In this document: positions 21,420-62,725 of the stretch, one piece after another
Numbering within the stretch: the first letter of the stretch is position 1
How the letters are laid out: every line of letters begins with the position of its first letter
Notes under the pieces: generated by a model
Database searches by the model: none
What the model was told of the DNA's origin: nothing
The model's input: the letters and a program-made list of their open reading frames with translations, nothing else
NCBI GenBank assembly: GCA_905221615.1
Contig: CAJNDT010002846.1
Span: forward strand, 735,361 to 799,360
Reading direction: 5' to 3'
Origin: Symbiodinium sp. CCMP2592
Taxonomy: Eukaryota; Sar; Dinophyceae; Suessiales; Symbiodiniaceae
Length of the DNA stretch: 64,000 nucleotides
Made by a program: the position numbers and the translations under genes

Positions 21420-21458
21420 ATGGATCCCCCGTCGCTGCAAGGCGACATTTCGCGAAGG
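21420..21458 (+). CDS. Hydrolase exon 1 (start)
   Basis: ATG at 21420 opens [13 protein letters not shown], ending at a GC donor (agg|GCTGCC) in the phase needed for [11 protein letters not shown] at 21768. No targeting peptide is visible, so a longer N-terminus upstream cannot be excluded. Confidence 0.5.
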
Positions 21459-24400
21459 GCTGCCGACACAGGCACTTCGAGCCTCTGCTGTCAATGCGTT
21501 CCCTGTGCTTTACAGACGGTTATAGAGTTGTTTGTTCACCGCTCGGGTTGAAGGTTATTGTGTTGTTGTTTGACAACGTTTGTTGTTTTTTGCACATGGT
21601 TAGTATTTATGCTGGATTTGTGTTTTTTTCTTCCGTGGTGTTGTTTTATTCTTGGGGGGTGTCAGGCGTTCCTTTGTGCGTTTGGTGTCGAATGAAGAAG
21701 ACAGGATACCTCAAACGCTCAATTCCTGACCCTGCATCCCTACAGCGCCTAAGCAAGGAAGGATCAGCCCTTGGCACTCGTCGTTCCTGGATTCCTTGGC
21801 GACTGCGGGGATTTTGAGGAACTGGCGGAAGAAATGCGGCAAGCCGGGTACAAGGTGCGCCGGTTTTGGATTGGATTCATCATGATTTGCGTTGGGGGTT
21901 TTCGGGTTTGGGGTTCATGGTTAAGGGTGCAGAGTGTAGGGTCTACTGTACGCAATCTCGGTCAGAATGATGTCTTCGGGGATTAAGGGGTTTGAATTTG
22001 GTGTAGCACACCTCTCAGCCTTTATCAGCTCCTATAGTTCTTAAGCGCGGAATCGGGGAAGGGGTCATATTATGCGACTACTACATTGGTTTTTAGTGGG
22101 CCATCATCGTGATCCACTTCCATAACCCAGTAAGCCATAGAGTGGTAAGTGGGCTATGCCAGGTTCTACTTTCGATACAGTCCAGGACTATATGTTCTAG
22201 CGCTGCGGGTCGGGGATGAATATCCTGCCCGACCACATACCCTAAACCCTAAACCAGCCTAAACCCTAAACCCTACGTGCCGCAACCAAGACCTACTTTA
22301 CAAGACCCTTTCTACTAACCCTGAGCGCTTCGAAAGCCCTAGTCGGATTTAAATCCCAGACCCTGGTAAACCCCGACACCTTCCCCCCATTTTTTTAAAC
22401 CCTCAACTCTAAACCCCTAAACCACAACAGCCCCAAACCTCTAAACCCCTAATTAAACCCCAAACCGCTTAAAGCTCCAGGACACACCTGAACCCATGGG
22501 ACGAACAGCCACAGGCCTCAAGCTCGGGCTTGAGAGAATGAATGCAATCCAAGATCCGCACGACCACCGAAGAAGCGGTTTGAGTTTTAGGGCTTACCTG
22601 GAATACCAAAAGGTTATGCCTTGCAAGTGTGGCGTCATGACCAACTATGTTGCGGAGTTTGGGGAATTTTAGGGTTTACGTTCCAAAATCACGAACTTCG
22701 AAGGAAATCAAGAAACAGAGCAAGTACAGGAACTAAACCCTAGACCCTATTTAAGCCCAGGCAGTTGTTGCGCCGATCTCTTGGTGGCATTGGATCCCCT
22801 GCCCCTCGGAAGACCAACGAAGTCTTCTTCATGAGATCGTTCCCCTTGATTTAGGGTTTACTGTTTTTTTTTAGGTTTAGGGGTTCCGGATGTAGGGGTT
22901 TGGGCTTTAGGGGTTTAGGGTCTGAAGGGTTTTGGATTTGAGGTTTTGGGCGTTTGTAGTTCTTCATGAGATGTTTGCCTTGTGGTGGAGCTTCCGACCC
23001 AAATTGCTCCAAATCTGTACCGTAGAGAAGCCAAGCAAGCCCACAACCATAGTTGAAACCCCGAATTCCACCGTTCAGGTGAGTTCAGGGTTGAGGGTTC
23101 AGCTCTAAGCATTGTATGTGGGAGTTGCCGATTAGAGACTACGGCTGGCTTTGCTTCCAAGATTCTAACTGGAATGTTAATCCATGTTGCATATCGAAGC
23201 TACCCTAGGCCCCTAGGTCCAAAACTCCTGGAGCCCTAAAACCTAGCCCCGGAACCCCTGAAGTGCTAAGGGGATCCCGAATCATGGTCTTACCACAGAT
23301 TTCATTTGTCATGATCTAGCCAAATAGCACAGGCTTCAAGGGCCCGTATGTTAGAGTTTTGGAACCTACGACGATACGAGTTGATTGTTTTCTGCTATTG
23401 TGAGGCTTAACTTAAGAGAGGGTCAAGCCTTAGCAAGCTGGGGTTGCGCGATTTCAACGTCCACAACCCCTCGGAAAAGCAGTCCCCATAGTCTGGAAAT
23501 GGCTGAAGCGTGTCTTCATGCTCCTTGGAGCGTCTTCATTCAACGAGCCAAACAGTCTCCAAACGCCTTAGACTGCAGTGCACCACCTTGAATACGAATT
23601 TCCCCCAGACTCATCCGTGCATTGGATGTTCACCCGCCAAACCCATAACCCTAAACCCTAAACCCTAGACCCTAAACCCTAAAACCCTAAAACCCTAAAC
23701 CCTAAATCCCTAAACCCATAACCCTAAACCCGAATCGCCCAGAGTGAACCCAAACCCCTCCACCCTGAGCCCTCGAGGTATCGGCGGCCGGAGCATGCGT
23801 CCTATCTTGGAGCGCATCGATCATGCCGTCAATCAGGCTGAGTGGGGTAGGTTACAGCTTGCGGTAGTACTTGGGCTTGGGATCAAAAGCACTGCAATCA
23901 TCACATCCTTCATCTTTGCCGTCATCATCGTCGTCGTCGTCGTGGTCATCGTCATCAATAGGTTGAATGAGCTCGAATGATGAATGCCATTCACGGACTT
24001 AACGTTTGGAGGTTCGGGGGACTTAGTAGGTAGTAAATAGACTTATAAGTACCCGAAAAGGGACCCTAATTGGGATTATGGTACTTATAAGTCCCTAAGA
24101 ATAACCAGTTTTTACTAAGTGCCCCGACCCTCCAAGTAATGTTTGGAGGTTCGAGCTTGAAGCTTCCAGTCTTGACCAGGCACCAATCACCGGCTCAAGC
24201 CTCATTCCCAGACTGCTGTACTGCCCTTTGAGCGGCACAAGCCCTGAACCCTAAGGCCTAAACCGTTCAGGGTTTAGGGTTTAACTCTAAACCCTTTATA
24301 CACACTAAGTCTAAGGGCCCCGAAACCTACAGGCACTCTCTGTTTGGCGAGGCGTTCGCGCTGGAGGATGGCGCAACATCCGTGCCGACACCAGCGTCAG

Positions 24401-27400
24401 CGCATCTTCAAGTAGCACTCTTTTTTGGTTCGTTGAAAGCTGTGTTATACACGTTTTTCGGCTTTAACAACGGTTCGATGGTGTCCAGGGTGCAGGGTGT
24501 GGGGTTTTGCCTAGCCCCGATAACCAGTATGCAATAAGGTCCCAAAAGACCTTTCTTATTTTGGTTTCAGGGACCTAATTCCATAATGGTAGTATATGTG
24601 GTGCCTCTAGGTCATGTTTGCCCTAAACCCTAAACTCGAAACCGAATGTCGAGACCGAAACCTGACCTGCGGTCGCATCGGATTCTGCCGAACGTTGATT
24701 TAGTAGCTGAGTGGATACACTTTACCCTTTTTGGGATAATATTACCCCCTATAAAACTGAAAGTGTACACTTTTGCTCGCTTATGAACTCACAACTAAGT
24801 TGATATGAGGCTTCGAATCATTTACACTGGTATGCCCTTCTGATTCTAGTCTCTATGATACTCTTTCTCGTTAGTAGTTCGCTAACATCATATTCTAACT
24901 ATCAGGGCCCCTATGCGCCTGTATGTGGCTCGAAGCCGAAACCTTTGAGTACACCCCCAAAGAAGAGTTGACACCGAAGTTCGAAGACCCAGCTGCAAGA
25001 ACCCTCAAACTATGGCAGGGTTTAGGCTTTACATGGCTTTACAGTTCTATGCTTCCAAGGACCTTATAACTAGGGCCCTAGACCATCCTAGACCCCTCAA
25101 GACCCAATCATAAGGTCCCTGGAAGCCTAGGGGAACTGACAACTGATTCAACAAGCAAAGACCTGGTTTCTTCACGTCACCCTCCTGCTCACAACGCCAA
25201 ACCCCGAAACCCTGAAGCTTGAATGTCGAAAGCCGGAAACTATCCCTAAAACCCCAAGCCCCGAAACCTAAGCCTTACCTGAACCTTCGCTAACTTACGT
25301 GTTTTGCCCCCGCAAACAAAATAGCCAAAAGTAGGTTTCAGCAGACTTGGGCAAATTCGATTATTCGAGGTACAACGTGGCCGATTTCCTGACAGACCTC
25401 TTGAACAATCCGGGTGGCTTCCTCAAGGCCACTTTTGGCTTGGGATTTGGGGTTTGGGGTTTAGAGATTTCGCTGCGATGCGTTGTCGACCGCTCCATAT
25501 TAAGGTGGGGACGGCGCATGAGCTGCAATGCCAGCCCTCCCACCCAAAATTGCAATCCCCAACGGGTTTAGGGTTGTATACCTTCCCGAATTATCAAGGG
25601 GGGCTTGCATGGTTTGGAGGAAAGGCGTCTGAAAGCTGTGAGAATTGATTTGAGAAAATGCAGCAGAAGTTGGCCGAGTGTGAAAGCGACGTCAAGTTGC
25701 TTTCGCTTACAGCCAAAGCTGCAGAAGCTAGAAAATTCAAGGTCTGTTCAACCATGCTTTCATTTCGTATGGTGGAACTAGCAGGCATCAATACGTAGAT
25801 GTGCATGCATCAGGTCAAGTGCGAGATGCGGCACAGCACAATTGCTACCAACCGTGTTTTGCCACCGGCATGCACTGTGTTGTGGGGCCCTTCGAAACTG
25901 ATCGTTTTCTGGATAAGCCGCTATAAAGGAAGATGCGATTTTCTTGTCCCCGCTGCACTGATTGATCCACACGTGGTGCGCAAACGGATTCCCACTGGTT
26001 CTTTTGTTAGATGCCACGAGAAAAGGCCCCCCGGTCTTTGTAGCCATTTGAAGACCCCTACCTCCTGAAACGAGGTAAAGCACCCCTGCGCTTTGTCGAA
26101 TATTTGAACCCCCGCTCCTCCTGCAAAGCACATGCCACGGATGAGGCACCCCCTGCTTTTTGTAGCCATTTGAGAACCTTTTCATTTCCTAGTATTGTTT
26201 AGTCGACTTAAGCACCGGATTGAGGTGCACACCGGGATTGGCTACCATCTAAATTTAAACTACACATTTTATAGGCAGAATCTGATAACTAAAATCGGCC
26301 TCTGATTTTCCGAATTCCGTTGTTGCGGCTCTCAATTCTAGGCTCGGGTCCTTAATTACAGTTTCGGGTCCTTGGTCCTTGACTTGTGGGTTCGGGTTCT
26401 TAATTTAAAGCACAAGGTACTTAAATTTTCGGTGCCAGCCCTTAACTTCAAACTCCTGGTCTTTAATTTTAAGCTCGTGCCCTTGAGTTCTTGTGCCCAA
26501 TTTTTCGCTTGGGTCCTTAATCTTGAGTTCGGGTCTTGGGTCCAAGTCCTTACTTTTAGGCCCGGGTCCTTAATTTTAAATTCTCCGGGTTCCTACTTTT
26601 CAGCCCGGTTCGGACTTCATGTGAAGCTCCAGCCCTGGTGGATTTCAGTGCTCCCGCCGGTTTGCGCCAAGGTTTAGGGTTATTACTATATAGGACTGAC
26701 ACAGGCGGCCCATTCGGATCAGCCGCGTGGACCTTGCGGTCCAGGAGTCCAGGACCTCGGGGCAGGCCCTTTTCAGTGGCCGCCTTCGCCCTCGGTCCAC
26801 AAGCTCCTTCCGGTCAGCCTGTTGCGACCGGCCCCCATCGCTGCGGTGGGGGCGACGGTCTTCGGGTTTAGGGTGGGTAACCCTGAACCGTTTTGGGGTG
26901 CGCCATACTCCTCACATGATCCTTAAAGTGAAGCTTTTAGTTCCCTTAGGATATTGGACAAGTAAGAAGAACTGTATGGCCATGAAGGCTACAAACAACT
27001 GCTTATGGTTAGCTATACTGAGCTTGATACTTCCAGCTTAATCCTAGTCTACTTGTAAGTGCCCAAGAAGCTTCAGGCAAACGGTCTGAAGCGTCCGATG
27101 TTCGAATCGATAGGAATTGGAGCTGTAGGCAAGGTTGATGGAAGACCATTCGGTAAATTAGCCGCTCAATGCAAAGTTATCTAGATGGGTTTGCTGCGCT
27201 TCGGTTCAGGCCAGCGGGCTTCCATGTAGCATCCTTGCTTGCAGGGAATGTTGATGTTGAGGGGACGCTTCTGAGAAGGGCGCCCAAATCCGAACCGAGG
27301 GCCGAAATATGTAAGCCCTAATTCCACCCAAAATTCTGTAGACTCTAAGTCCAAAATCCTTGACATTCAGGGTTTAGGGCTCAACCGGCAATAAAGGTTC

Positions 27401-35405: not shown

Positions 35406-35448
<43 letters not shown>

Positions 35449-35497
35449 ATATATATATATAATACAATAAAAAATATATACACATATATATATTATA

Positions 35498-35531
<34 letters not shown>

Positions 35532-40767: not shown

Positions 40768-40802
<35 letters not shown>

Positions 40803-41217
40803 CATAAGGAATTTCAGATGGTTGCAATTCGGCCCAAGGCCCAACATACATCTCAAGCACCAAGTCCTAAGCAACAGGCGTTTTCCATAACAAATACAAT
40901 ATGAGTATACTAATGTACAGTAAAACACATTCTATATGTAATATGTATATCTATATACATAACAAATACATATATATATATATATATATACACACGTAAG
41001 TTAGCCAGATGTATTTTTATAGTGCTGTATTTTCCTAGGTTTATTTATTCGGTTTATGAAAAATGTATATGCATATATACACAGGCGAACAGCTAGATAG
41101 CTTCATAGATATAGACGCAGTTAAGGAATTATTGTGCAGAACTACGTATGCAACATGTTGGCTTTGTATAGATATAGGTATGTAGGTGTAGATGTAAAAT
41201 AAGCTCTCCATATACAG

Positions 41218-41248
<31 letters not shown>

Positions 41249-51854: not shown

Positions 51855-51947
<93 letters not shown>

Positions 51948-52902
51948 CTCTATTTCTCTCTTTATCTCTCCCTTTTTCAACCTCACTCTGTTTATTTGGC
52001 TTACTTTTTGTTTCTCTTCTCTCAACAGAACTAAGCACTCGTGCTGCATTGTACACTATAGATGGCCTCACAAATAGGTTCTGTGCAATCAATCCATGTC
52101 ACCCTTGCCTTGGCATATCCTTGTTTTGTGTGTTCTGCTCCGTGGTGGAGTGTTCCTACACTTCCCTATGACGGTGCAAGGGCAGTCCCTTTCAGTGTCG
52201 GTGAATTGCAAACCAATGAATGCCTAAGTAAAGGGTAGCTACTTGATAGTTACCTGGCGAAGGGTCGGCTAATATTACACAGGCTTGTTAAGGGGATTGG
52301 GTCTTAAACGGTATGCATACATACACGACAAATTGATTCAGAATAAGCCAACAAGCCTCAAACCACTAACCTACGGAAGCTTCTAAACTTGTGGAAGTCA
52401 GACAATAACACAAACAGCCTTGTGTGTATTGCTAGATAATCCAATGTATGTGGTAGGAGTCATGCTGTAGCATGTGCTTGCTGTTGGCTATATACATGTA
52501 ATGCACATGTATGTTCATGACGTAACTCAAAACATGCAGATAGTGATCGACATATTTGTATGCACATGTAGCTAGAATCTGTGTGAGTTAGGTCCGGGCT
52601 CGTGGCTAGATTTCCCGTTAGATGGGCAGATACCACATGTATGGATGGATTATGAAATGAAACCTCGAATAGGTCGAAGTAAATGTTTCATGTTTTCAAA
52701 GACATAACACACACACATATATATATATGTATATATATATATGCCATATGAAATAATGCACATGTGAACCTGGTATCTATATAGCATGTGCAAATTATGA
52801 TAACACATATGTGTGTGTATATATATACATACATATGTATACATATATATATATATATACATAAATAATCAAATCATAATATATGTGTATATGTGCATGA
52901 GA

Positions 52903-52949
<47 letters not shown>

Positions 52950-55900: not shown

Positions 55901-58900
55901 GGGAAACGCTGGCTCCGTTCGAAGTGCTGGCATCCTACTGGGCTACGATTCTACGAGATTTCCCGAACCATCCTATGCACTCCATGCCTCAAAACTGGGC
56001 CAGGACTGTTCCTATTCTTATTTGGGGAGATGAAGGCCAAGTTCGAAGAAAAAGCTGGATGGTGAGTACGTGGTGCCCTGACATTTGCATATATAGCCCT
56101 GAACCCGAATTCTTCTAAGCACCCTAACCATCTTATCAAATCTATTCTGTTATAGTTAGGGTTAGGAGGGTTGTGAACAAATCCAAAGATGACCTAGGAC
56201 GCCGGACTTGTGCAAGTACCGTACCAATGGCAAGGCATCGAGATACATCATATTTTCCCTGCCAGTCAGCCGCTACCATGTGGATGATGCCAAAGTGAAC
56301 CACTCGCTTCAAGCCCTGTATGACAGTATTGTCGACGACCTCAACAAACTTGCAACCGAGGGGCTGCCGGATGAGAAATTCGGAGATCCTTGTAGCAAGA
56401 TAACAATATATGGGTATGGGTGTTTAGTCAATGGGTGTTTTTATGAAAGCTTCTCTTGGATCGGGATCTTTGTGTTTCTTTGTTGGGTTTACACTGGTTA
56501 ACTCTATATTTCATATTTGGGAGAACTAAGACGATCTTCTTCTCTGTGGTTTCGGTGAAGGGAGACTTAAAATTCCTCAAGCAAGCCTTCAACCTGGTGC
56601 GCCATCCTGGAAGTGAAGAGGCAAGTTAATATATGGCTTGTATTGAAGCCAGCAAGGAGCTGTGATTAAGTCAACCAAAACTTATAAGACCCGATCCTCA
56701 AGGATTTACCAGTATCGGCTATTTATTGTGGTATCCTCAAAGATTTGCATGCCCTGAAGGTATGCCATCTCTGCTTGGCTTCCATGGGACGGTCTGCAAA
56801 TTTTGACCGTGTTTACACAGATGTCTCCAACGGTGCCGGCTGGAGAGCGACGAGGGGCGTGATGGACCCGTGGAATGCTGCACCAGCCTTATCAAGGCTG
56901 GTAGGATTTTCCATGAGGATGATTGCCACGGATTTGTTGCACACGTGGAATCTTGGGTGCTTGCGGGATGTTGTTGGATCAACTGTTAAGATTTTGGTGC
57001 GAGACAAGCATTATTATCAAGGCTCGAACATCCAAAAACGCTTCAGAACTCTTTCTCGTGAACTTCGAAGCTTTGCAAGCTCCAATGGCATGCAGCTGTC
57101 GTTGACTGGGGTCAAGAAGGAAACCATTGCCTGGAAGTCCGATGCGTGCCCTGAACTACATGCTTCCGGACATGATGCCATGGTCTTCCTTAGGTACTTG
57201 GTGGCCAAGGTCCAGCAGCAAGCACCGCCCCGCTATAATGGCTTAGTCGTGAACTTATGGGCGGCTGATACTTTCATGAGCTGTATTCAGCATGGAGGTC
57301 CGTTTCTGACTGAAGATGAAGCTGCTACAGTATATGGTGTGGGCAACCTTTGGCTTACCAGTTACATCAAGCTGGCGAACGAGGCGCTCAACAACCATGA
57401 ATACCTTTTTAAGTGCCGACCGAAGATGCATATGGTAAACCACACCGTCGACGATGCAGTGGAGCGCTTGTCGCGGCGCAATCCCAGCCAGGATACGACA
57501 TGGATGGACGAGGACTACATAAAGACTGTCATGAGGATGAAGCGCAAGATGGACTACAGAACGATGTCGACTAACTGTTTGTACCGTTTCCTTGTAGTTG
57601 TCAAGCGAAGCTTGCAGGCAGCTCTGAAGGCGGACGGTTGCTAGTTTGTAGCTGCCATATACATATGTACTAAGAATGATAGGCTGGTTGATCCCATATA
57701 TATTTATGTAATTACCGATGTACAGAACAGTACACTAGGTGGAGCTATTTAGCATAATGCCTCTGTAGGTACCTACAACAATTAGTGTACATATATAGGG
57801 TTCCAAATAGTTGCTATAACCAAAAGCCTTGCAGAGCTTGGAGCTCGTGGCCAAAGGGATCGGCTCTGAGGCTTGCAAAAGGGGCTTTGGGGAACTGTGG
57901 GGTTAACTATGCTCTACTTTAGTAAACAAGCTTTGCTTCGAAACAACAAAAACCCTAAAAACCCTTAATTCCCTAAATCAATGACTGTGCACATGATCTG
58001 CCACCTGGGCTAATTCAGATTGTGAACTCCGCAAATCCCAAAATAGAAGCTGGTCCTTCCTGACATCCCTACATTAAATCCTTCATCCCGAATGAGTTCT
58101 TGAGACCCAAACCCTGAACAGCTCAACCTGCCGAAGCCGAAACACAAAACCGTGCTTGCTTAAGATTCAAAGCTAGAGTTCTGCTTTCGGTTTCCCCGAC
58201 CTTAACTAACTGGCCCAGACCTTTCAAACCTGAAGCTGGGAATGCAAGGGAAGACAGCTAGGGCTAGGGGGTAGGCCGAATCTTTTTTTATGGATGCTGT
58301 CTCTATTATACTATTTGCAGCGGTACATCTGGAAATCATTTGAAAACATCCTGAAGCCTAGCACCCTACCATTTGCAGTAATATCTTAGCAATCAGTGCA
58401 GCTTCTTTATAAAGCCCTTGAGCCCAAGCCAGTGAACCCAAACAGAACTTCTGAAGTTCCATAACCTAAAACCAGAAAGCCTCGATAGAGGCCCCATGAA
58501 GCCACATAAGTTTAAAGCCTGTTTCCGGATACGTGCAAATCCTTTATGCATTTACAATATATTCTCACAAAGTGGATGTTGTAGAACTGGAACTCGGAAC
58601 CTTGTCTCGGAGAGTTCGATGTTTAGGATGAGGCCCATATCCTGAATGGGTCTTGAAACCCTAAAGGGGTTAGGGCTTAGGGTTGACGGCTTAAGGCTTA
58701 AGGTTGGGGCTTTAGAGGGTTTAAGGATTAAGAGCTTGGGGTTTAGGGCTTAGGGTTCGGGGGTAGGGTTGAAGGTTTAGGGTTTGGGGGTAGGGAATTC
58801 AAATTTCTTTAGGGCTTAGTGTTTGGGCTTAGGGTTTAGGGTTTGGGGTTGGGCTTTCGGGTTAAGAGGACTTGGGGCTAAGGTTTAGAGTTGTAAGGTT

Positions 58901-61900
58901 AGGGTTTACGGTTTGGGGTTCGGGGTTTGGGATATGTATATGTATATGTATATGTGTATACATTTTCTATAGATCCTGGGTAACCTGCCGGTTATATATG
59001 GTAACTGTAGACCTGTATACGTCCAGGTTGATTCAAGCGGTTGAATAGTACGAACAGGGTTTCAACTTGATTGGCTTGTCTATCGAATTGTTAGTTGTTT
59101 TTTCTGTATTTTTTTCGTGTGGGTCCCTCCCAACCGGAATTCCGGGCCTTCTGAACAAATATAAGAAACTGCGAATTCCAATGTGTTAGGTCGGCATGAT
59201 GCAAATTTTGATGCTCATGATAACAAACTGTCTGGGACATTCATCCTGTCATAAATATGTCATTATGTCATTGTACATAGCTTTAAAAAATCACTTTTCA
59301 AATGATCCTGATATTTCCTGATGATCTTGATGCTCTGGATGGCCTTCATATAAAAACTGCTTTTTGATGGCTCAAACATGATGAAGGCCATCACGTCTCC
59401 AAGGTTAGAATGCTTCCTGCTCCATGGCCGTAGGGTTGCTGTTTTAGGGCTTGCTTGAACTTTTATGTAACTCTGTCGCAAAGGCCTCAGTTTATAGAAA
59501 TCCTGGTTTTCAGGGTGTAGGCTTTAGCGTTTAGGGCTTTAGGGTTTAGAGAGTCTGTAGAAATTGTTAAAGGCTTTGGGTGCCAATAAGTGTTGACCGA
59601 AACGTGTTGAGAAGGTTTTTAATTGAACTTGATTCTGGGCCGCGGGCTGGGCTCTGGCAGGGGGGGCTGGGACTGAGCCGGGGTTGGGGGTGTTTGGAAT
59701 TGGTGGGCCGGGGGAGCGGGGCTAGGCTCGGTTGGGCTGCTGGGTACTGCGTCGGAACAACTGTCATCGTTTGGCGCCACCCTTGACCTTACAACTTGCC
59801 TAAACCCTTTTCTACAGCGGGTTCTGACTGTCATCGTGTCAAAGTATACACGGCGTTTTCTTCAAATTCATCGGAATTGAACAGCCTGTTTTGACCGTAG
59901 TGAAAACTAAAGCTGCTACTCTTATCCCCATATGTCGAGACCCTTTGAGTTAAAAACAGAAATCATGTTCGAAAACATAAGAACAGTCGTTGTTTTGTTC
60001 GATTGTCGCGTTTTTCTCATGTCGCTAACGATTACAAGCGCAGCCCTCATAAACCCCAAACCCCGAACCCTTTTCGCTATCAGCTTTTGTTCTTATATCT
60101 TGCACAACGGATACCTGGTCGGAAGTAGATGTTGGAACCCTAAACCCTAGCCTAAATGCTCCGCCGTGTTCTAAACCATAGTCCTCTTTCGGTTCCCTTT
60201 CCTAGGTTAGCTGCATACCATCAGCGAAACCGCTCCAGAGTCGATGATCTGCTCACATCATAGCTGCTCTGCCTCGGACTTCCGCCGCCGACCCAACTTA
60301 AAAATCTAAAATAACTAGACGATAACAGCCCCGCCAGGTCCGCGCAATACGATCCGACTCGTCAAGCCTTTGAAACATCCAAGCTTTGATTTTTGATCTC
60401 CTTATACAATACAAGTCAGCAAACGTTTGGCTTGTTGGGTTCTTAGGTCCAGGTATATCTCTAAATCCTTAACCAGGCAAGCCCATTCCCCGTGCTCGGC
60501 CAGGAGAAGCTGGAGTTAGACGGAGTGACGCATGCACCCGAGACCCTTGGCCCAAGCAACGGTAGGGTTTAGCGTTTAGGATTGTTTCCATGGACCCCCC
60601 GGGTAAATAAAAGATCGAGCGTTTAGGGCTGTTTCCATGGACCCTCCGCGTAATTCAAGGATTTCGAAGGCCAAACAAAGGCTTGCTAGGGTTTAGGGAT
60701 TTACATGGATGTTCGGTTTCGGTGCCTAAGGTTCCCCAGAGTTTCCGACATACCGTAGTAGTTGAAGAATATTCGTGAAAGAACAGTAGGATACCCAACA
60801 TGTTTTGAAGCATTCCTTCTTTTAAAGTCCCAGACGCCAATACCCACCGCCCAACATGTTCATGACTAGAGAACGATGCTGCTGACGCTGATGATGATGA
60901 CGATGGTGACAATGATGCTAGTGATGGTGCTGGCGATGATGATGACGACAGTGACGAACATGATGATGACGACGATAAGGGCGATGGTGATGACGATGAT
61001 GGTGACGATGGCGATGACGATGGTGATATCCATACGACGATGATTGCAACGATGATGATAACCACGATGATGAAAACGATGGCGATGACTGGGGTGACAA
61101 CGATGATGACGATCATGATAACGATGCTCATGGCGATGGTGATAGCCTGATAACGATGCTGCTGCCGATTGTGATGTCCAAGATGATGACGACGATGTTA
61201 CCCACCATGATGGCCATGATGGTAACCATGATGATGACGATGCTTCTCACGATGGTGCAGACGATGACGATAACGACGAGTATGACGACGATGATAACGA
61301 TGACAATAACAATAACGGTGATATGTTCTGCGAGTCACGGCTTTCAGCGTGGGTCTGCCAGCCCTTTAACTTGCAGCAGCGAAGGGGCGATCTGCAAAGG
61401 GTGGCTGCGTACAGACCATTTTTCGTTTGTTCTTCGCCTCACAAGCCTTGATAAACTTGTCCTAATCTTCAAAACCTTTGCCCTCACCAGCGCTTTAGCC
61501 GTCTCTCGTAACACTGCCTGCGCTGCCCGTTTTTGGGGCCTGGTGCCGTAAATAACGCAGATGGAAGAAACATTTACATAGATTCAAACCAGAGCTGTGG
61601 TTTTCAATTTGAATTCTAGCTCGGGTGTACGCAGCATGATCCAGGTGCAGCATGTAAGGTTTGTAATGTAGGGTTGAGGATTGATGTGTGGGAGTCAGGC
61701 GTAGGATGCAAGTTCGGCTTTTGGGATTGAGAGTTCAGGATTTGGGGATGAGTAATGAAGGGGTTTGAGCACGTTCATTTTTTTCAACTCTTAAGGTTAA
61801 GACGAAGCTTCTACTTGATTTAAGAATGCCAAGACCGAAGTTTACCACAGATAATAGCCGATAGATCCGAATTTCGAAGCATCCCGGTGCTCCAAGACTA

Positions 61901-62725
61901 TTTTTCTTGCAATGGGTTGGGGGTTGGGTTTAAGTTTTTGGGCTCAGGGTATTTTACGATTGGCAGTTCCCGATTCAAAGCTTTCGCATCCCATTATCAA
62001 ACCATGTCAGACAGACCTGTAGGATCCCCAAAAAAACGGTAAGCCTTAGTTCGCAGTCGCAAGGTATCTCGGTCTCCCGTCGCCCATCTTTGTAACTTAG
62101 GTATCTTATGATATACCCTATACCCAAAACAGGAGCCCTGTATATTCCTAGGTTGCTGGGGATCCTAGGTACCCTGCCTTTGGTCCAAGCTCCGCTCTGG
62201 CAGAAGAGCGCGCATCCGGAAAGCCGTGGTACGGACGCTCGGTCCTGCGCATGGTGAATCGCCTGTTGTGTTGTGTTACAAGGACAGGGTTTGTACTATA
62301 GGGGCTTTTGTAGGTTTTAGTGTTTTCGTGCTTGGGTTCTAGTGTTGTGCATTGGGCTTCGGAAGATGCTGAGGTATTGGACACTTTAGGTTTAGGTTCA
62401 TCTATGTTGCAAGGCTCAGGGTTCAGCGGGGCTTAAGGAACTGGGTGCAGTTACTAAGAACAACAAGCCCTCCTTGCTTCTGATGTTTTTCATTTCAAGA
62501 ACCCTGATAAATACAAAGATTTCGTGTAAACAGAACAGAAAATCAACGTACTAACCAATGGAAAACCCGCACTCGCATCTACTCTCACCGAACCACAAAC
62601 TTGGCTTTACCTTACAGTCCTAAGCCGTTAACTTTAAACATGCTAAACGCAAGGTCCTAAACCTAAGCCACCGAGGTAGTCCTGAGATCTTGAAGAAGTG
62701 GCTCCCGTGGCTCCAAGGTGCTTAG
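21420..62725 (+). CDS. Alpha/beta-hydrolase, multi-exon gene of about 41 kb (whole span)
   Basis: At least 14 short exons in one order read as a lipase-like alpha/beta-hydrolase of roughly 300 residues: [155 protein letters not shown], stop. PGFLGD near the start fits the oxyanion region, LGSPH a late strand, and THAP is a plausible catalytic His. The order matches plastid/cyanobacterial-type lipase-like hydrolases as I know them; substrate unknown. Most junctions agree in phase using GT, GC or GA donors. Two gaps remain: the exon for the nucleophile elbow and the first half of the YLS strand (between 29792 and 33084), and a short piece between 34480 and 36949. So the gene may be intact with missed exons, or decayed. 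Its introns hold an intronless BTB gene and a 19-kb mobile-element block. Confidence 0.75.
21768..21854 (+). CDS. Hydrolase exon, PGFLGD motif
   Basis: Acceptor ggatcag|; 29 codons including [20 protein letters not shown] and RQAGYK; GT donor (aag|GTGCGC). Strand-turn-helix layout typical of the first strand of lipase-like alpha/beta-hydrolases. Confidence 0.82.
22761..22800 (+). CDS. Hydrolase exon, WWHWIPC
   Basis: Acceptor aagcccag|G; reads [13 protein letters not shown] plus one base; GC donor (cct|GCCCCT). The split codon with GT at 23778 gives Cys, producing [17 protein letters not shown]. Confidence 0.8.
23641..23731 (-). repeat. Telomere-like array (CCCTAAA)n
   Basis: About a dozen nearly regular CCCTAAAC / CCCTAAAA units in a row, one of the two best-preserved arrays in the window. 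It ends about 45 bp before the hydrolase exon at 23778. Confidence 0.9.
23778..23836 (+). CDS. Hydrolase exon, [18 protein letters not shown]
   Basis: Acceptor ctcgag|G; reads [21 protein letters not shown] donor (cag|GCTGAG). Joins in phase with 22800 and 24333. Confidence 0.82.
24004..24139. repeat. MITE family A, copy 3
   Basis: GTTTGGAGGTTCGGGGGACT at the left pairs with AAGTGCCCCGACCCTCCAAG at the right. The interior ACTTATAAGTACCCGAAAAG is shared with copies 1 and 2. The sequence GTTTGGAGGTTCG recurs just outside the right end (about 24140), so the flank may be duplicated. Confidence 0.85.
24333..24411 (+). CDS. Hydrolase exon, linker region
   Basis: Acceptor cctacag|G; 26 codons plus one base ([20 protein letters not shown], then SVSASS); GT donor (caa|GTAGCA). 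The motif is not conserved, but the phase fits both neighbours exactly: the leftover A plus AC at 25345 gives Asn. Confidence 0.62.
25051..25127. repeat. Short foldback element
   Basis: GCTTCCAAGGACCTTAT at the left and ATAAGGTCCCTGGAAGCC at the right are inverted repeats with one mismatch. Confidence 0.75.
25345..25427 (+). CDS. Hydrolase exon, NNPGGFLK
   Basis: Acceptor ttcagcag|; reads [20 protein letters not shown] then NPGGFLK; GC donor (aag|GCCACT) at a codon boundary. Joins to VGGTDDP at 29754 to give the expected PGGFLKVGG. Confidence 0.82.
25655..25741 (+). CDS. Possible exon, coiled-coil peptide
   Basis: Twenty-nine codons between tttgag| and a GT donor (aag|GTCTGT): [20 protein letters not shown] then KAAEARKFK, with heptad-like hydrophobic spacing. 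It does not belong to the hydrolase sequence, where 25427 joins 29754 directly. It may be a fragment of another gene. Confidence 0.35.
26018..26182. repeat. Diverged tandem repeat, unit about 48 bp
   Basis: The units share AAAGCACCCCTGCGCTTTGT-type starts followed by AGCCATTTGAA or GAATATTTGAA and a CCCC(T/G)(A/C)C block. Two copies contain GTAGCCATTTGA exactly (near 26040 and 26161). On the - strand the repeats are open ([17 protein letters not shown]), which may hint at decayed coding origin. Confidence 0.6.
27630..28847 (+). CDS. BTB (BTB-BACK-like) protein, intronless
   Basis: A 405-codon uninterrupted frame. I chose ATG 27630 ([20 protein letters not shown]) over the in-frame ATG at 27561 because it matches the start style of the other BTB gene and the intervening peptide is not conserved-looking. 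The BTB fold spans about residues 35-150: [73 protein letters not shown]-like helical stretch follows ([40 protein letters not shown]). The C-terminal third (about 250-405; [46 protein letters not shown]) looks like a beta-rich sugar-binding or F5/8C-like domain, a guess from pattern only. BTB-BACK proteins usually recruit substrates to cullin-3 ligases. The gene lies in the hydrolase intron between 25427 and 29754. Confidence 0.85.
   Translation: MSAGCKRKRQPELVVADENLSAASDMWNKCFGKDGNFTVIVEEPSGEDCQGTAGKLAMKHTEFKVWSSLLAQWSPVFAKMVGSDSYAESQRAEVVIPDFSASAVEMFLRFMYSGSIVGSITAVVEVAALADKYQVKILHLSCLQLVRETITPDMACEVLAFADRFRVDDLRAEAFDLILTKPEEALEECPSLRPELLTEILGSGQLCISAEGLRKTIRGWGRKDCDSLESIIDIRAQNVHTTDALFTLWNRYTMAGKKGIFVGCWVVPIVGPEQGEDFSAEDLRSTAENDGPFTLRKGWVQWSLPQAWVYLQGISFGESSTMFSNPEEVVEGSSAASFLIWSSADGATWHLAYESHKQEIKGSTFLACKRPPSLVKHFKLEVLEGELDSIYFNIHGILQTPIRPS
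28848..29753. other. Hydrolase intron, repeat DNA
   Basis: Downstream flank of the intronless BTB gene. It holds an 18-bp direct tandem (TGGCACGTTCCTTAAGTC at 28974-28991 and 28992-29009), telomere-like motifs (29310-29390) and AATGGTAAC/GTTACC-type partial foldbacks (29475-29600). No gene. Confidence 0.6.
29754..29792 (+). CDS. Hydrolase exon, [13 protein letters not shown]
   Basis: Acceptor tcggag|G; thirteen codons [15 protein letters not shown] donor (ttc|GAGCCT), though a GC donor two bases on is possible. Continues PGGFLK from 25427 in phase, so this exon proves the gene continues past the nested BTB gene. Confidence 0.75.
30376..30444. repeat. MITE family A, 3' half
   Basis: Contains TTTCGGGTACTTAT and ends CTAAGTCCCCCGACCCTCCAAGTAG (25 bases seen, shared with copies 1 and 2). 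The left terminus is missing. The last AG lies directly before a candidate exon at 30445. Confidence 0.8.
30445..30531 (+). CDS. Candidate exon directly after a MITE end
   Basis: Twenty-nine codons ([20 protein letters not shown] then TATGLPQLQ) between the MITE's terminal AG and a GT donor (caa|GTTTTT). The phase is 0 at both ends. It lies where the hydrolase's nucleophile region should be but shows no GxSxG. It may be a hydrolase insertion, another gene's exon, or chance. Confidence 0.4.
31840..31983 (+). CDS. Candidate terminal exon, unknown
   Basis: Forty-seven codons to TGA after gcaag| ([38 protein letters not shown], ...). It is protein-like in composition but matches no family and no phase partner was identified. 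Confidence 0.3.
   Translation, partial: AVTIEASKLAVLTYAPQPNHLTDNYVGLREISSARGEGAEKLSCLRL
32148..32347 (+). CDS. Candidate terminal exon, unknown
   Basis: After acceptor agacag|G, 66 codons to TAA ([56 protein letters not shown]). Its charge pattern and lack of repeats stand out from the surrounding DNA. No family recognised. It lies in a hydrolase intron. Confidence 0.4.
32461..32556. repeat. MITE family F, copy 2
   Basis: AGATCCCAATACCCAATTAA, then GGAATATGCCTTAAA, pairs with TTAAGGTATATTGATTAATT, then AAGGGGTATTGGGATCT. Confidence 0.88.
32617..32812. repeat. MITE family C, nested or composite copy
   Basis: Left end TGGAATTTCCGAAAATTAGG. One inverted end lies at about 32710 (CTTTTCGGAAACCCCCTA) and a second at 32795-32812 (ATCGGAAACTCCCATA). 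Two right ends suggest nesting or a tandem end. Confidence 0.7.
32880..32982 (+). repeat. Telomere-like array (TTTAGGG)n
   Basis: About fourteen tandem units of GGTTTAGGG with GGTTGAGGG and GGTTTATGG variants, the cleanest + orientation array here. It sits 100 bp upstream of the hydrolase exon at 33084. Confidence 0.93.
33084..33144 (+). CDS. Hydrolase exon, [15 protein letters not shown]
   Basis: Acceptor cttcag|G; reads [22 protein letters not shown] donor (tca|GACGCC). Joins in phase to VVCLGSPHF at 33979, giving [11 protein letters not shown]. Its first base completes a codon from an upstream exon not found. Confidence 0.8.
33165..33235 (+). repeat. Telomere-like repeat cluster
   Basis: TTTAGGGGTTCAGGGTTTAG-type units starting about 20 bp after the hydrolase exon at 33084-33144. 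Confidence 0.8.
33979..34055 (+). CDS. Hydrolase exon, [19 protein letters not shown]
   Basis: Acceptor agctcag|G; reads [20 protein letters not shown] then YLESS plus two bases; GA donor (cg|GACAGA). The split codon with G at 34404 gives Arg. LGSPH is the strand after the nucleophile helix in this lipase type. Confidence 0.8.
34072..34145. repeat. MITE family E, partial copy beside an exon end
   Basis: CTGATGATATAAATCCTGCA then TCACCCATAAAAAGGAATAT matches the reverse arm of the copy at 17023 and begins 16 bp after the hydrolase exon end at 34055. The other end is lost near 34145. Confidence 0.72.
34404..34480 (+). CDS. Hydrolase exon, NVRFLCVG
   Basis: Acceptor tcacccag|G; reads [20 protein letters not shown] then RFLCV plus one base; possible GA donor (gtcg|GACCCT), with GT donors at 34490 and 34493 in the same phase. 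A following short exon starting with two bases has not been found. Confidence 0.65.
34510..34593. repeat. Family G element, short copy
   Basis: The right end AAGGCTTTTGGGGGATTTTG then AGCCTTAGGG corresponds to the terminal arm of the 1840 element. The left part carries AGGCCCCAAGGACTCATG. Confidence 0.7.
35407..35562. repeat. (AT)n microsatellite
   Basis: About 150 bp of AT dinucleotides with short interruptions (TCATATAT, AATACAATAAAAA). An unjoined exon-like reading lies just upstream at about 35286-35397 ([20 protein letters not shown], to a TGA). Confidence 0.95.
36064..36153. repeat. Foldback element
   Basis: CCCTAAGGCCCCATAGTAGT, TCCTTCT at the left is matched by AGAAGGAGCTGCTGTGGGGC, CTTAGGG at the right: 27-bp arms with three mismatches. 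Confidence 0.82.
36160..36380. pseudogene. Unjoined protein-like segment, strand uncertain
   Basis: On + the frame reads [20 protein letters not shown] then [13 protein letters not shown]. On - the same stretch reads [20 protein letters not shown]. Both look protein-like and neither has a start, recognised family or phase partner. It is probably a relic of an exon or element and does not belong to the hydrolase sequence. Confidence 0.25.
36670..36708 (+). repeat. (TTAG)n-(TTTG)n microsatellite
   Basis: Four TTAG units pass directly into five or more TTTG units. Confidence 0.9.
36870..36942 (-). repeat. Telomere-like array beside a hydrolase exon
   Basis: Tandem CCCTAAACCCCAAACC and CCCTAAACCCCAAGC 15-mers end only a few bases before the exon at 36949. 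Confidence 0.88.
36949..37003 (+). CDS. Hydrolase exon, [10 protein letters not shown]
   Basis: After gcaag|, [18 protein letters not shown], ending at a likely GA donor (gat|GAGCCG), phase 0 with LRSVEGDG at 38384. The 5' join is not settled (the intron acceptor could instead be 36955). The motif D(M/L)T(R/K)GAYAFC fits this hydrolase type. Confidence 0.65.
37893..37920. repeat. Perfect 12-bp-arm hairpin
   Basis: AAAACCCTAGTC and GACTAGGGTTTT with a 4-base loop (CAAA). Perfect palindromic stem built from a telomere-like core. Confidence 0.85.
38384..38446 (+). CDS. Hydrolase exon, [14 protein letters not shown]
   Basis: Reads [20 protein letters not shown] then A, ending at a GC donor (gcg|GCGCGG). 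Joins in phase to [13 protein letters not shown] at 60504, more than 22 kb downstream. The 5' edge is 38384 (after gaag|) or 38389 (after ctgag|G). Confidence 0.78.
38447..38627. other. Hydrolase intron, telomere-like DNA before the island
   Basis: Contains the last telomere-like motifs before the mobile-element block (GGGTTTAGGGTTTGGG at 38514, TTTAGGGTTTTG at 38588). Confidence 0.6.
38628..38753. repeat. Foldback at the left edge of the mobile-element block
   Basis: GGGACCCAAAAAGCGCATAG at the left and TTATGTGCTTTTGTGGGGCC at the right are imperfect inverted ends. The interior holds an inverted pair GGGATATCCTTACCT / GGGGATATCCCTAACCTC. It marks where telomere-like DNA stops. Confidence 0.6.
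38774..38884 (+). CDS. Element gene 1, first recognised exon
   Basis: [20 protein letters not shown] then [16 protein letters not shown], ending at a canonical GTAAGT donor. No start codon is apparent, so the true first exon may be upstream or lost. Confidence 0.55.
38774..45868 (+). CDS. Mobile-element-like gene with methyltransferase-like core (whole span)
   Basis: A series of + strand exons without telomere-like repeats between them. N-terminal exons are Lys/Ala- and Glu-rich, with one (43628-43980) carrying [15 protein letters not shown] and [20 protein letters not shown]. The core exons 44576-45453 read [86 protein letters not shown] and [12 protein letters not shown], then [14 protein letters not shown]. 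ELFAGxGxxT followed by a D(I/V)xH..D strand and a cysteine-containing turn resembles the SAM-binding part of a Rossmann methyltransferase (cf. LFAGxGG of C5 DNA methylases). Proteins with this exact series of motifs are, to my knowledge, very abundant in Symbiodiniaceae gene models and behave as mobile repeats. Catalysis is inferred, not shown. Exon edges upstream of 44576 are approximate. Confidence 0.62.
38957..39058 (+). CDS. Element gene 1, exon
   Basis: [20 protein letters not shown] then [14 protein letters not shown] donor (cag|GTTGAT). The 5' edge is approximate. Confidence 0.5.
39821..39869 (+). CDS. Element gene 1, 49-nt exon
   Basis: Acceptor gatgcag|[19 protein letters not shown] donor (tcag|GTGTGC). 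Basic peptide. Confidence 0.5.
40126..40225 (+). CDS. Element gene 1, acidic exon
   Basis: Acceptor tgtgcag|; reads [20 protein letters not shown] then [14 protein letters not shown]. The donor is unclear (GC at about 40220 possible). Confidence 0.5.
40409..40529 (+). CDS. Element gene 1, exon [18 protein letters not shown]
   Basis: Acceptor ggcccag|G; reads [20 protein letters not shown] then [20 protein letters not shown]. Helical, no family name. Confidence 0.5.
40530..42158. other. Intron-like interval with AG and AT microsatellites
   Basis: No exon recognised. It contains (GA)n at 40770-40798 and AT-rich simple sequence at 40970-40992 and 41217-41240. The 126-codon - strand frame at 41379-41759 has no family signature. 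Confidence 0.55.
42159..42422 (+). CDS. Element gene 1, exon [20 protein letters not shown]
   Basis: [60 protein letters not shown], with a stop at 42420-42422 unless a donor is used before it. Strongly basic helical region suited to nucleic-acid binding. Confidence 0.55.
   Translation, partial: SPGKTDILAPWSIANPPFSDEVIAAVLRGSRKGRKRYSAHLIADALRCWYHRKKLVPRGISVNAPSVQDWALKAGNAIRKLEARLHY
42522..42650 (+). CDS. Element gene 1, exon [19 protein letters not shown]
   Basis: [20 protein letters not shown] then [20 protein letters not shown]. Basic, helical. Confidence 0.5.
   Translation, partial: SHSSPGNQVQAPGATCSNFPQQSPNGAQARVDRLPSQAGFAT
42699..42853 (+). CDS. Element gene 1, acidic exon
   Basis: Acceptor gtgcag|G; reads [20 protein letters not shown] then [20 protein letters not shown]; ends near a TGA. 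Confidence 0.5.
43019..43296 (+). CDS. Element gene 1, Ser/Ala-rich exon
   Basis: [60 protein letters not shown]. Low complexity with a basic helix. Stop at 43294 unless spliced before it. Confidence 0.5.
43376..43522 (+). CDS. Element gene 1, exon
   Basis: [20 protein letters not shown] then [20 protein letters not shown], ending at gaatgcag|GTGTGC or just before. Edges approximate. Confidence 0.42.
43628..43980 (+). CDS. Element gene 1, KA-repeat and cysteine exon
   Basis: [20 protein letters not shown], a (KAKA)n/KSKA repeat, then [20 protein letters not shown] and [40 protein letters not shown]. CxxC (CAEC) may bind zinc. The repeat is encoded by imperfect AAGGCT/AAAGCC units. Confidence 0.6.
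44576..44642 (+). CDS. Element gene 1, SAM-binding-like motif exon
   Basis: Acceptor tcttgcag|G; reads [20 protein letters not shown]. ELFAGxGxxT resembles motif I of Rossmann methyltransferases. Confidence 0.65.
44717..44874 (+). CDS. Element gene 1, methyltransferase-like exon
   Basis: Acceptor gaagctag|G; reads [52 protein letters not shown] plus two bases; GT donor. Phase-consistent with 44955 (AT + G = Met). Confidence 0.68.
44955..45156 (+). CDS. Element gene 1, exon LLEQPSGSF
   Basis: Acceptor ctgcacag|G; reads [40 protein letters not shown] and [20 protein letters not shown]; ends near gaccga|GTCAGG. LLEQP/LLENP is a hallmark of this dinoflagellate element family. Confidence 0.7.
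45247..45453 (+). CDS. Element gene 1, exon YWYMANFG
   Basis: Acceptor tcgcctag|G; reads [60 protein letters not shown] donor (caa|GTCTTT). Confidence 0.65.
45576..45655 (+). CDS. Element gene 1, exon [14 protein letters not shown]
   Basis: [18 protein letters not shown]. The pattern YPxxFGxxIAxL ends the core region in this family. Edges approximate. Confidence 0.5.
45729..45868 (+). CDS. Element gene 1, possible terminal exon
   Basis: [47 protein letters not shown] then TAG. An acidic C-terminus is plausible. The next + strand exon-like reading ([18 protein letters not shown] near 48748) is isolated. Confidence 0.4.
45869..49718. other. Between the two element genes
   Basis: No convincing coding region, no telomere-like arrays. 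It holds AT-rich simple sequence at 46372-46392 and 46434-46452, and one exon-like piece at 48745-48835. It could be the 3' flank of element gene 1 plus the promoter region of element gene 2. Confidence 0.5.
49719..50686 (+). CDS. Element gene 2, first exon
   Basis: ATG at 49719 opens [20 protein letters not shown]; 322 codons plus two bases to a GT donor (cacaa|GTTTGT). Includes [20 protein letters not shown] and a Pro/Lys-rich linker. The phase agrees with 50760 (AA + G = Lys). The other open frames here are shadows. Confidence 0.7.
49719..57644 (+). CDS. Mobile-element-like gene with DDE-transposase-like C-terminus (whole span)
   Basis: About twelve + strand exons. The N-terminal 320 residues are low-complexity, with a Lys/Thr/Ser tandem repeat. 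Next come a helical region ending [10 protein letters not shown], a segment [15 protein letters not shown] / [20 protein letters not shown], and linkers. The C-terminal exons read [107 protein letters not shown] and [23 protein letters not shown], then GDLK, a CxxC, DLLHxxxLGxLRD and a KxHMxxH-type end is a layout I associate with CACTA/Plavaka-like cut-and-paste transposases; the acidic residues could be DDE catalytic positions. Such proteins are, to my knowledge, highly repeated in Symbiodiniaceae. One in-frame TAG at about 54468 suggests decay. Terminal inverted repeats were not identified. Confidence 0.62.
50206..50360 (+). repeat. Coding tandem repeat, [12 protein letters not shown]
   Basis: Five or more imperfect 30-33-bp units encode (T/A)SK(I/V)[12 protein letters not shown]. 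The codons are kept nearly identical (CACAAGCAAG, GTCAAG), which points to recent repeat expansion. Confidence 0.85.
50760..50859 (+). CDS. Element gene 2, second exon
   Basis: Acceptor cagctcag|G; reads [20 protein letters not shown] then [15 protein letters not shown] donor (ctt|GCAGGG). Confidence 0.6.
50993..51616 (+). CDS. Element gene 2, third exon
   Basis: Acceptor tgtcacag|; [20 protein letters not shown], an acidic central part ([20 protein letters not shown]), then [14 protein letters not shown] to a GT donor (atg|GTTCTG). Helical, possibly coiled coil. Confidence 0.65.
51859..51944 (+). repeat. (TC)n microsatellite
   Basis: More than 40 TC dinucleotides in an element gene 2 intron. 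The Arg/Glu ORF on - is an artefact. Confidence 0.97.
51945..52990. other. Intron of element gene 2
   Basis: Apart from one short reading just upstream ([20 protein letters not shown] at about 51720-51800) no exon is seen. AT-rich simple sequence at 52720-52745, 52820-52860 and 52904-52946. Confidence 0.55.
53007..53180 (+). CDS. Element gene 2, exon [11 protein letters not shown]
   Basis: [56 protein letters not shown]. The motif LLxxWVxSGxN and a basic follow-on are typical of this dinoflagellate repeat family. Edges approximate. Confidence 0.58.
53282..53604 (+). CDS. Element gene 2, exon [13 protein letters not shown]
   Basis: [40 protein letters not shown], then a Ser/Thr-rich part ending [15 protein letters not shown]. 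Recognised family motif. Confidence 0.6.
53765..53960 (+). CDS. Element gene 2, linker exon
   Basis: [54 protein letters not shown]. Low-complexity linker then a charged helix. Edges approximate. Confidence 0.5.
54072..54200 (+). CDS. Element gene 2, exon
   Basis: Acceptor ctttcag|G; reads [20 protein letters not shown] then [20 protein letters not shown]; ends near TAG at 54197. Confidence 0.48.
54403..54535 (+). pseudogene. Element gene 2, exon with in-frame stop
   Basis: After atgcag|, [22 protein letters not shown], then TAG, then the frame continues [20 protein letters not shown] stop in the middle of an otherwise continuous helical exon suggests a decayed copy, unless an unusual splice removes it. 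Confidence 0.45.
55536..55790 (+). CDS. Element gene 2, exon before the transposase-like core
   Basis: [60 protein letters not shown]. Edges approximate. Confidence 0.5.
55873..56059 (+). CDS. Element gene 2, exon with ILIWGDEG
   Basis: [20 protein letters not shown] then [21 protein letters not shown] donor (atg|GTGAGT). The Asp of WGDEG is a candidate first DDE residue. Confidence 0.6.
56195..56400 (+). CDS. Element gene 2, exon
   Basis: [60 protein letters not shown]. Donor uncertain. Confidence 0.5.
56560..56622 (+). CDS. Element gene 2, short exon [10 protein letters not shown]
   Basis: [20 protein letters not shown]. GDxKxxxxAFxLxR is a conserved step of this family and holds a candidate second Asp. 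Edges approximate. Confidence 0.5.
56745..57644 (+). CDS. Element gene 2, terminal transposase-like exon
   Basis: About 300 codons to TAG at 57642, open throughout. Starts [14 protein letters not shown] (CxxC), then [80 protein letters not shown] and [33 protein letters not shown] and KMHMVNH are candidate catalytic-core elements of a DDE transposase. The best-preserved coding region of the block. Confidence 0.72.
   Translation: MHALKVCHLCLASMGRSANFDRVYTDVSNGAGWRATRGVMDPWNAAPALSRLVGFSMRMIATDLLHTWNLGCLRDVVGSTVKILVRDKHYYQGSNIQKRFRTLSRELRSFASSNGMQLSLTGVKKETIAWKSDACPELHASGHDAMVFLRYLVAKVQQQAPPRYNGLVVNLWAADTFMSCIQHGGPFLTEDEAATVYGVGNLWLTSYIKLANEALNNHEYLFKCRPKMHMVNHTVDDAVERLSRRNPSQDTTWMDEDYIKTVMRMKRKMDYRTMSTNCLYRFLVVVKRSLQAALKADGC
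58655..58945 (+). repeat. Telomere-like repeat cluster
   Basis: About 290 bp of GGGCTTAGGG, GGTTTAGGGTTTGGGG and GGGTTTACGG variants in one orientation, ending in a (TATATG)n run at 58931-58954. Confidence 0.85.
59638..59745 (+). other. G-run cluster, possible G-quadruplex DNA
   Basis: More than ten runs of three to seven G on the + strand (GGGCCGCGGGCTGGG, CAGGGGGGGCTGGG, CCGGGGTTGGGGGTG, GGGCCGGGGGAGCGGGG). Several successive runs are 1-7 bases apart, fitting the G-quadruplex pattern. Unlike the telomere-like DNA around it, this cluster is not heptameric. Confidence 0.6.
60504..60561 (+). CDS. Hydrolase exon, [11 protein letters not shown]
   Basis: Acceptor ctcggccag|G; reads [19 protein letters not shown] plus one base; GT donor (aacg|GTAGGG) that is itself the start of GTAGGGTTTAG. 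Joins in phase to 38446 upstream and to 62204 (G + AA = Glu). The His of THAP is a candidate catalytic residue. Confidence 0.78.
60887..61320 (+). repeat. GATGAC/GATGAT imperfect triplet repeat
   Basis: About 430 bp of GAT-GAC-AAC triplets. Makes long Ser-rich - strand and Met/Thr-rich + strand frames that are not genes. Confidence 0.9.
62204..62233 (+). CDS. Hydrolase exon, 30 nt, KPWY
   Basis: Acceptor tctggcag|; AA completes Glu, then ERASGKPWY plus G; GA donor (tacg|GACGCT). The shortest exon in the gene. The join gives [19 protein letters not shown], with phases correct on both sides. A longer version starting at 62169 is possible but out of phase with 60561. Confidence 0.75.
62676..62725 (+). 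CDS. Hydrolase terminal exon, [13 protein letters not shown]
   Basis: Acceptor caccgag|G; GT completes Gly, then [15 protein letters not shown] and TAG at 62723-62725. WYGSPEIxxxWLPxL is a typical C-terminal end of this hydrolase type. Confidence 0.8.

Follow-up and report, generated by a model that had tools for sequence, protein, structure and literature searches.

A hydrolase gene of Symbiodinium sp. CCMP2592, most likely a single one, that carries a 20.6-kb DNA transposon in an intron

The window studied here is a stretch of 64,000 nucleotides from Symbiodinium sp. CCMP2592 (G000:C2846:735361-799360 in the searched assembly of 1.098 Gb and 5,383 contigs), and its features are collected in Table 1. 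Reading of the plus strand by motif and phase gave an exon model for a hydrolase gene, which consists of at least 14 short exons spread over about 41 kb. The 14 exons from 21768 to 62725 can be joined in frame without any stop codon and give 279 residues followed by TAG. Their 13 introns have GT (4), GC (6) or GA (3) as the donor and AG as the acceptor in every case, though the AG acceptors were selected for in model building. The G+C content is 58% in the hydrolase exons and 69% at their third positions, against 48% in the introns, the inserted element included. There is no N in the window, and the contig ends where the window ends, 1,275 bases past the stop codon of the hydrolase gene.

Table 1. 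Positions, within the 64,000-nucleotide window, of the hydrolase exons, the long intron, the transposon with its parts and the nested BTB/POZ frame
Feature	Position	Strand	Basis and remarks
Possible 5' exon with ATG, proposed by an earlier reader	21420..21497	+	By eye; no homologue reaches this far; uncertain
Exon, first with homologue support, donor phase 0	21768..21854	+	Spliced alignment and assembly search
Exon, GC donor, phase 1, ends in split Cys (C) codon	22761..22800	+	Spliced alignment
Exon, opens with split Cys (C) codon, donor phase 1	23778..23846	+	Spliced alignment and assembly search
Exon, donor phase 0	25342..25427	+	By eye and phase
Exon, end uncertain	25655..25711	+	By eye; another GT donor gives end 25741, both in frame
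Intronless BTB/POZ open frame in the 5.8-kb intron (25712-31533, second largest)	27552..28844	+	Pfam PF00651, 4e-14
35-nt exon with nucleophile motif, donor phase 2	31534..31568	+	Spliced profile alignment; start from phase
Exon, donor phase 0	33084..33144	+	Start and first 31 bases by spliced alignment; end by eye and phase
Exon, GA donor, phase 2	33979..34067	+	By eye and phase
Exon, donor phase 1	34404..34489	+	By eye and phase
34-nt exon, split (A) to split (E), GC donor, phase 2	36972..37005	+	By eye and phase
Exon with aligned Asp, GC donor, phase 0	38389..38446	+	By eye from motif and phase; Asp by column alignment
Intron, GC-AG, 22,057 bp, of which 1,409 bp host DNA	38447..60503	+	Exon join
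Target duplication, left copy, TT	38755..38756	.	Comparison with copies
DNA transposon, 20,648 bp, in the hydrolase intron	38757..59404	+	Ends sharp against C5054 and C1391; 3' end also at C3179
5' terminal inverted repeat CCTTGGAGAC	38757..38766	+	Comparison with copies
Element gene 1, multi-exon, extent approximate	42210..46084	+	Protein-level matches in copies (among the matches listed)
Element gene 2, multi-exon, extent approximate, ends in a 318-codon open frame	49716..57641	+	Protein-level matches in copies (among the matches listed)
3' terminal inverted repeat GTCTCCAAGG	59395..59404	+	Comparison with copies
Target duplication, right copy, TT	59405..59406	.	Comparison with copies
Exon with aligned His, GT donor, phase 1	60504..60561	+	Spliced alignment
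Exon, GA donor, phase 1	62204..62233	+	By eye and phase
Last exon, stop TAG	62676..62725	+	Spliced alignment

An earlier note on this DNA had proposed exons from 21420 to 62725 and a protein of about 300 residues over about 41 kb. The observation was upheld, but the start at 21420 found no homologue support. The end of the putative first exon at a phase-0 GT donor is a guess, and anything 5' of 21768, including the ATG at 21420, is among the weakest parts of the model, together with 36972-37005 and the end of 25655-25711. Both joins in the C-terminal part that the note had predicted were borne out: the exon ending at 38446 with a GC donor in phase 0 joins the exon from 60504 in frame over 22,057 bp, and the exon ending at 62233 with a GA donor in phase 1 joins 62676-62725 in frame to the TAG. 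Seven exons (those starting at 25342, 25655, 33979, 34404, 36972, 38389 and 62204) were located by eye, with motifs and phase as the guide. Among the internal exons 36972-37005 is the least certain, with another phase-consistent choice, also seen by eye, near 34958. At the exon 31534-31568 the spliced alignment came in via an earlier acceptor at 31497.

To place the protein in a family, we obtained 36 cyanobacterial loci (L002-L037) with a consensus sequence and built a profile from 35 of them, one having been removed by a length/motif filter. The joined 279-residue protein scored 103 bits against this cyanobacterial alpha/beta-hydrolase profile. A former draft of the protein, which lacked the nucleophile exon and the exon from 33084 and contained another piece instead of 36972, scored 73 bits. 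At the near-invariant columns of the cyanobacterial family, 41 of 94 are identical in the joined protein, including His-Ser-Ala, Gly-Asp-Gly and His-x-Pro, and 53 differ or are gapped. The order of the motifs is the same as in the cyanobacterial proteins (PG[FY]L - GGRS - [GA]HSA.GWISR - LG[TS]PH - GDG.TP - HxP - WYGSPE), though the alignment to the family is weak in the stretch from LGSPH to GDG. On the other hand, the window gene differs from the cyanobacterial ones in its division into at least 14 exons, in having AHSAAG where they have GHSAGG, and, in the column alignment, in two insertions, one of about 35 residues ahead of the nucleophile and one of about 10 ahead of WYGS.

The nucleophile elbow (G/A-x-S-x-G) is present as AHSAAGW in the 35-nt exon, and the C-terminal part has an acidic residue and then His, namely Asp of GDG in the exon up to 38446 and His of THAP in 60504-60561. 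The window protein and the cyanobacterial hydrolases share the aligned Ser, Asp and His, and each of the three columns is invariant in all 35 cyanobacterial proteins. The order of nucleophile, acid and His is usual for the alpha/beta-hydrolase fold, and on this basis the aligned Ser, Asp and His are presumably the catalytic residues. The joined protein is predicted to be an active hydrolase. Another peptide that had been taken as a degenerate nucleophile was dropped, as the true motif sits in the separate 35-nt exon given by the spliced alignment. Comparison with hydrolase profiles, which had been suggested as a check, was successful for the cyanobacterial profile but reached no cut-off in Pfam, where the best hit of the joined protein was PGAP1 (11.2 bits against a cut-off of 24.3, E 0.31). 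For 2 of the 36 cyanobacterial relatives, scanning against Pfam gave PGAP1 (PF07819) just over the cut-off, with 24.9 and 26.7 bits. With the draft protein, a search of PDB sequences revealed no relative (best E 0.47), and a search of Pfam and NCBIfam gave nothing useful. A weak candidate paralogue at C4446:752594 (E 1) was rejected, since by eye none of the listed open frames of more than 80 residues there resembles the hydrolase family.

The cyanobacterial profile was also aligned to the DNA in spliced form with three intron penalties, and the DNA of the locus with the element removed is called host DNA below. At the lowest penalty, host DNA scored 113.3. Twelve randomised sequences with a similar dinucleotide composition gave 43.3 +/- 3.6 (maximum 48.1), and the other comparisons gave 43.5 (reverse complement), 47.5 (the 21.3 kb upstream) and 41.0 (the element alone). 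The region after the element alone (59407-63000) scored 34.4, against 21.6 +/- 2.5 (maximum 28.0) for 30 randomised sequences. At the middle penalty the corresponding values were 80.3 for host DNA (control maximum 31.8) and 31.3 for the post-element part (maximum 26.2). At the highest penalty host DNA scored 52.8 (control maximum 21.8), which equals the score of the N-terminal part alone, so that the C-terminal part contributes nothing there; scored by itself it reached 28.3, against a control maximum of 26.0. Thus the C-terminal part alone stands moderately above its controls. The full stretch with the element scored slightly higher than host DNA (122.1 against 113.3) because chance exons were filled in. 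Such chance exons of the unrestricted alignment lie at 37.6-57.5 kb, in the middle and C-terminal part of the protein and many of them within the transposon. The same alignment recovered exons one to three, the nucleophile exon and part of 33084, as well as 60504 and the last exon, and missed the exons 33979, 34404, 38389 and 62204. Taken with the 14 in-frame exons and the 103 bits of the joined protein, the score of host DNA well over the randomised maximum agrees with the earlier claim that a collinear alpha/beta-hydrolase lies on both sides of the mobile block.

The aligned Ser and Asp lie 5' of the element and the aligned His lies 3' of it. Since they are on opposite sides of the long intron, a functional hydrolase would need both sides. 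A second copy of the C-terminal exons elsewhere in the genome had been named as a finding that would speak against one gene. The 1.1-Gb assembly was searched for a second copy of the N-terminal, middle and C-terminal exons and none was found, the next matches having E values of at least 0.5 or being absent (best candidates scored). As no second copy of the exons of either half was found, the two halves most likely form one gene.

What separates the two halves had been described as a mobile block of about 19 kb on the same strand, at 38774-57644. A mobile element is indeed in the intron, but it is one transposon of 20,648 bp with wider borders (38757-59404). It starts 310 bp past the intron donor and stops 1,099 bp short of the acceptor, and the intron without it is 1,409 bp long. 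Collinear relatives are present on contigs C5054, C1391 and C3179. At C5054 and C1391 both ends match the window positions 38757 and 59404. The C3179 copy agrees at the 3' end, and its 5' side has a gap of N. A pattern of 35 bases from the 3' end, with up to 3 mismatches, occurs at only four places in the assembly, the window included. The two terminal inverted repeats match fully (10 of 10 bp) in C1391 and in the copy of the window and at 9 of 10 positions in C5054, and all three copies with both ends readable are flanked by a 2-bp target duplication (TT in the window and at C5054, AA at C1391). Between the copies at C3179 and C5054 the identity is 99.8% over a length of 16.5 kb, but their 3' flanks differ, which indicates that the family moved recently. 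The nearest relatives of the window element are only about 65-79% identical to it (aligned pieces of more than 500 bases), so that it may have been inserted longer ago. Among the matches listed, C2112 carries a more remote relative of the two element genes.

Several other kinds of element were considered and rejected. For an LTR retrotransposon, none of the nine direct-repeat families of at least 25 bp in the intron connects the two ends of the element, and the families with far-apart copies look simple or telomere-like. An introner element supplies the intron itself and ends at or near the splice sites; the ends of the window element are 310 bp and 1,099 bp away from them. The 25 longest of the 494 inverted repeats in a scan are simple AT or CT repeats and not element ends; the minimum of the scan was 14 bp, and the true ends, with 10 bp, are below it. 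CACTA/EnSpm-like transposons are likewise large and multi-exon with short inverted ends, and by eye a stretch of 13 residues of the probable transposase looks similar to theirs. However, CACTA/EnSpm elements have CACT(A/G) at their ends and a 3-bp duplication, whereas the ends of the window element start with CCTTGG, the duplication is 2 bp and there is no Pfam match to a transposase.

The 318-codon frame (56688-57641) at the end of element gene 2 belongs to a large dispersed family, with at least 130 genomic matches when the frame itself is counted (125 scored out of 1,082 first-look candidates), and element gene 2 is probably the transposase. Scanning 17 frames of the element against Pfam gave no hit at the cut-off. 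The same holds for the 318-codon frame and five relatives, for which a DDE transposase was looked for. In element gene 1, at about 44561-45490, one peptide and WLLEQPSGS recall what we take to be DNA methyltransferase motifs, with no Pfam match. Among the papers listed for dinoflagellate DNA transposons and for Symbiodiniaceae and CACTA, no title or abstract opening describes the element, and we do not claim its absence from print. It is possible, though less likely than not, that the element represents a superfamily of giant dinoflagellate DNA transposons (about 20 kb) not yet described. Its marks would be CCTTGGRGAC ends, 2-bp TT/AA duplications, a transposase without a Pfam model and an additional gene resembling a methyltransferase. 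Elements of this kind may enter introns in sense orientation and stay there as complete nested gene units that the host splices out.

The host introns have other contents as well. The intronless BTB/POZ frame in the second largest intron belongs to a dispersed family: a search of the genome gave 65 matches, counting the frame itself, and contig C5240 holds many of these. Telomere-like TTTAGGG/CCCTAAA units are found in both orientations in host introns and flanks, with 4.77 per kb in 21768-38756, 3.63 in 1-21767 and 1.81 in 59405-62725, and with 0.63 in the element (about 0.12 per kb is expected at 50% G+C). The density is 0 to 6.7 per kb in 19 other stretches of the same genome. The distribution in the window fits the borders of the transposon. 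The intron after the exon 60504-60561 contains a long low-complexity repeat of GATGAC type at 60860-61320, in which several frames are open.

Dinoflagellate mRNAs bear a trans-spliced leader. Its 21-nt core, used as the query, occurs 429 times without mismatch in the assembly (217 forward and 212 reverse) and the reversed control not once, which marks the DNA as dinoflagellate. In the window, no relict spliced leader by the hydrolase gene or the BTB frame was found at up to 5 mismatches. Elsewhere, next to the C5054 copy of the element, on its 5' side, the DNA (L063, C5054:124690-124790) contains CATTTTTGGCTCAAG, which looks like the relict spliced leader of a retrogene.

Taken together, we are confident that the window holds one nuclear serine alpha/beta-hydrolase gene of cyanobacterial kind, with at least 14 exons and the 20,648-bp transposon inserted in one intron. 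In the proposed course of events, the ancestral gene would have had an intron of about 1.4 kb, which a cut-and-paste DNA transposon of 20,648 bp would have entered in the orientation of the gene. The host would now splice the pre-mRNA across the resulting 22-kb intron from the GC donor, from 38446 to 60504, and the element genes would be read as separate units of their own.

It is unlikely that the insertion broke the gene, that is, that the flanking exons are intact while transcripts end or are spliced within the element of a recently disabled gene. Poly(A) and splice sites for this could come from the element, which is 20.6 kb long, lies on the same strand and has genes of its own, but all 14 exons are free of stops and frameshifts, the aligned catalytic residues are retained, and the distance of the element from its nearest relatives allows an older insertion. 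We give a distinctly smaller chance to an assembly chimera, in which N- and C-terminal halves from different places were joined via a repeat, as the existence of related copies and the nearness of the contig end might suggest: the intact inverted ends and the matching TT are flanked by host DNA as one insertion event would give, the known copies are too divergent for a likely mis-join, and the halves are complementary, were found nowhere else in the assembly searches and lie in a window without N. Hardly credible is a pair of genes whose N- and C-terminal fragments are expressed apart and perhaps trans-spliced together, for although trans-spliced leaders exist in dinoflagellates and the leader sequence is present in this genome, neither part has the full aligned set, Ser and Asp being 5' of the element and His 3' of it, and the long intron has an AG acceptor and a donor of known type, in phase.

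The reading as one gene with an inserted transposon has close precedents in print. GC and GA donors make up 25-74% in Symbiodiniaceae, and an intron of 26,372 bp in Crypthecodinium cohnii is cited in the same review (PMC11453091). That intron is likewise longer than 20 kb, while the length of the window intron could be traced to one transposon. In two Polarella genomes, 8.4% and 6.5% of the predicted genes are nested within introns (PMC7245778). Polarella glacialis thus likewise has whole genes inside the introns of another gene, whereas what is nested in the largest intron of the window gene is an entire DNA transposon whose ends can be seen. The mean gene length in Effrenium is 20 kb (PMC11114475). 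Since reports of very long introns, of GC/GA donors and of nested genes already exist for dinoflagellates (PMC11453091; PMC7245778), the phenomenon is known, and what is new here is the locus and the element as further examples of it.

Finally, the hydrolase locus leaves beliefs about dinoflagellate genes unchanged. It offers a clean case in which a single step would have lengthened a dinoflagellate intron from 1.4 kb to 22 kb, and the transposon ends and the target duplication can still be seen. Standard annotation settings would probably give several wrong genes at this locus, and GC and GA donors as well as long introns must be allowed when such genomes are annotated.
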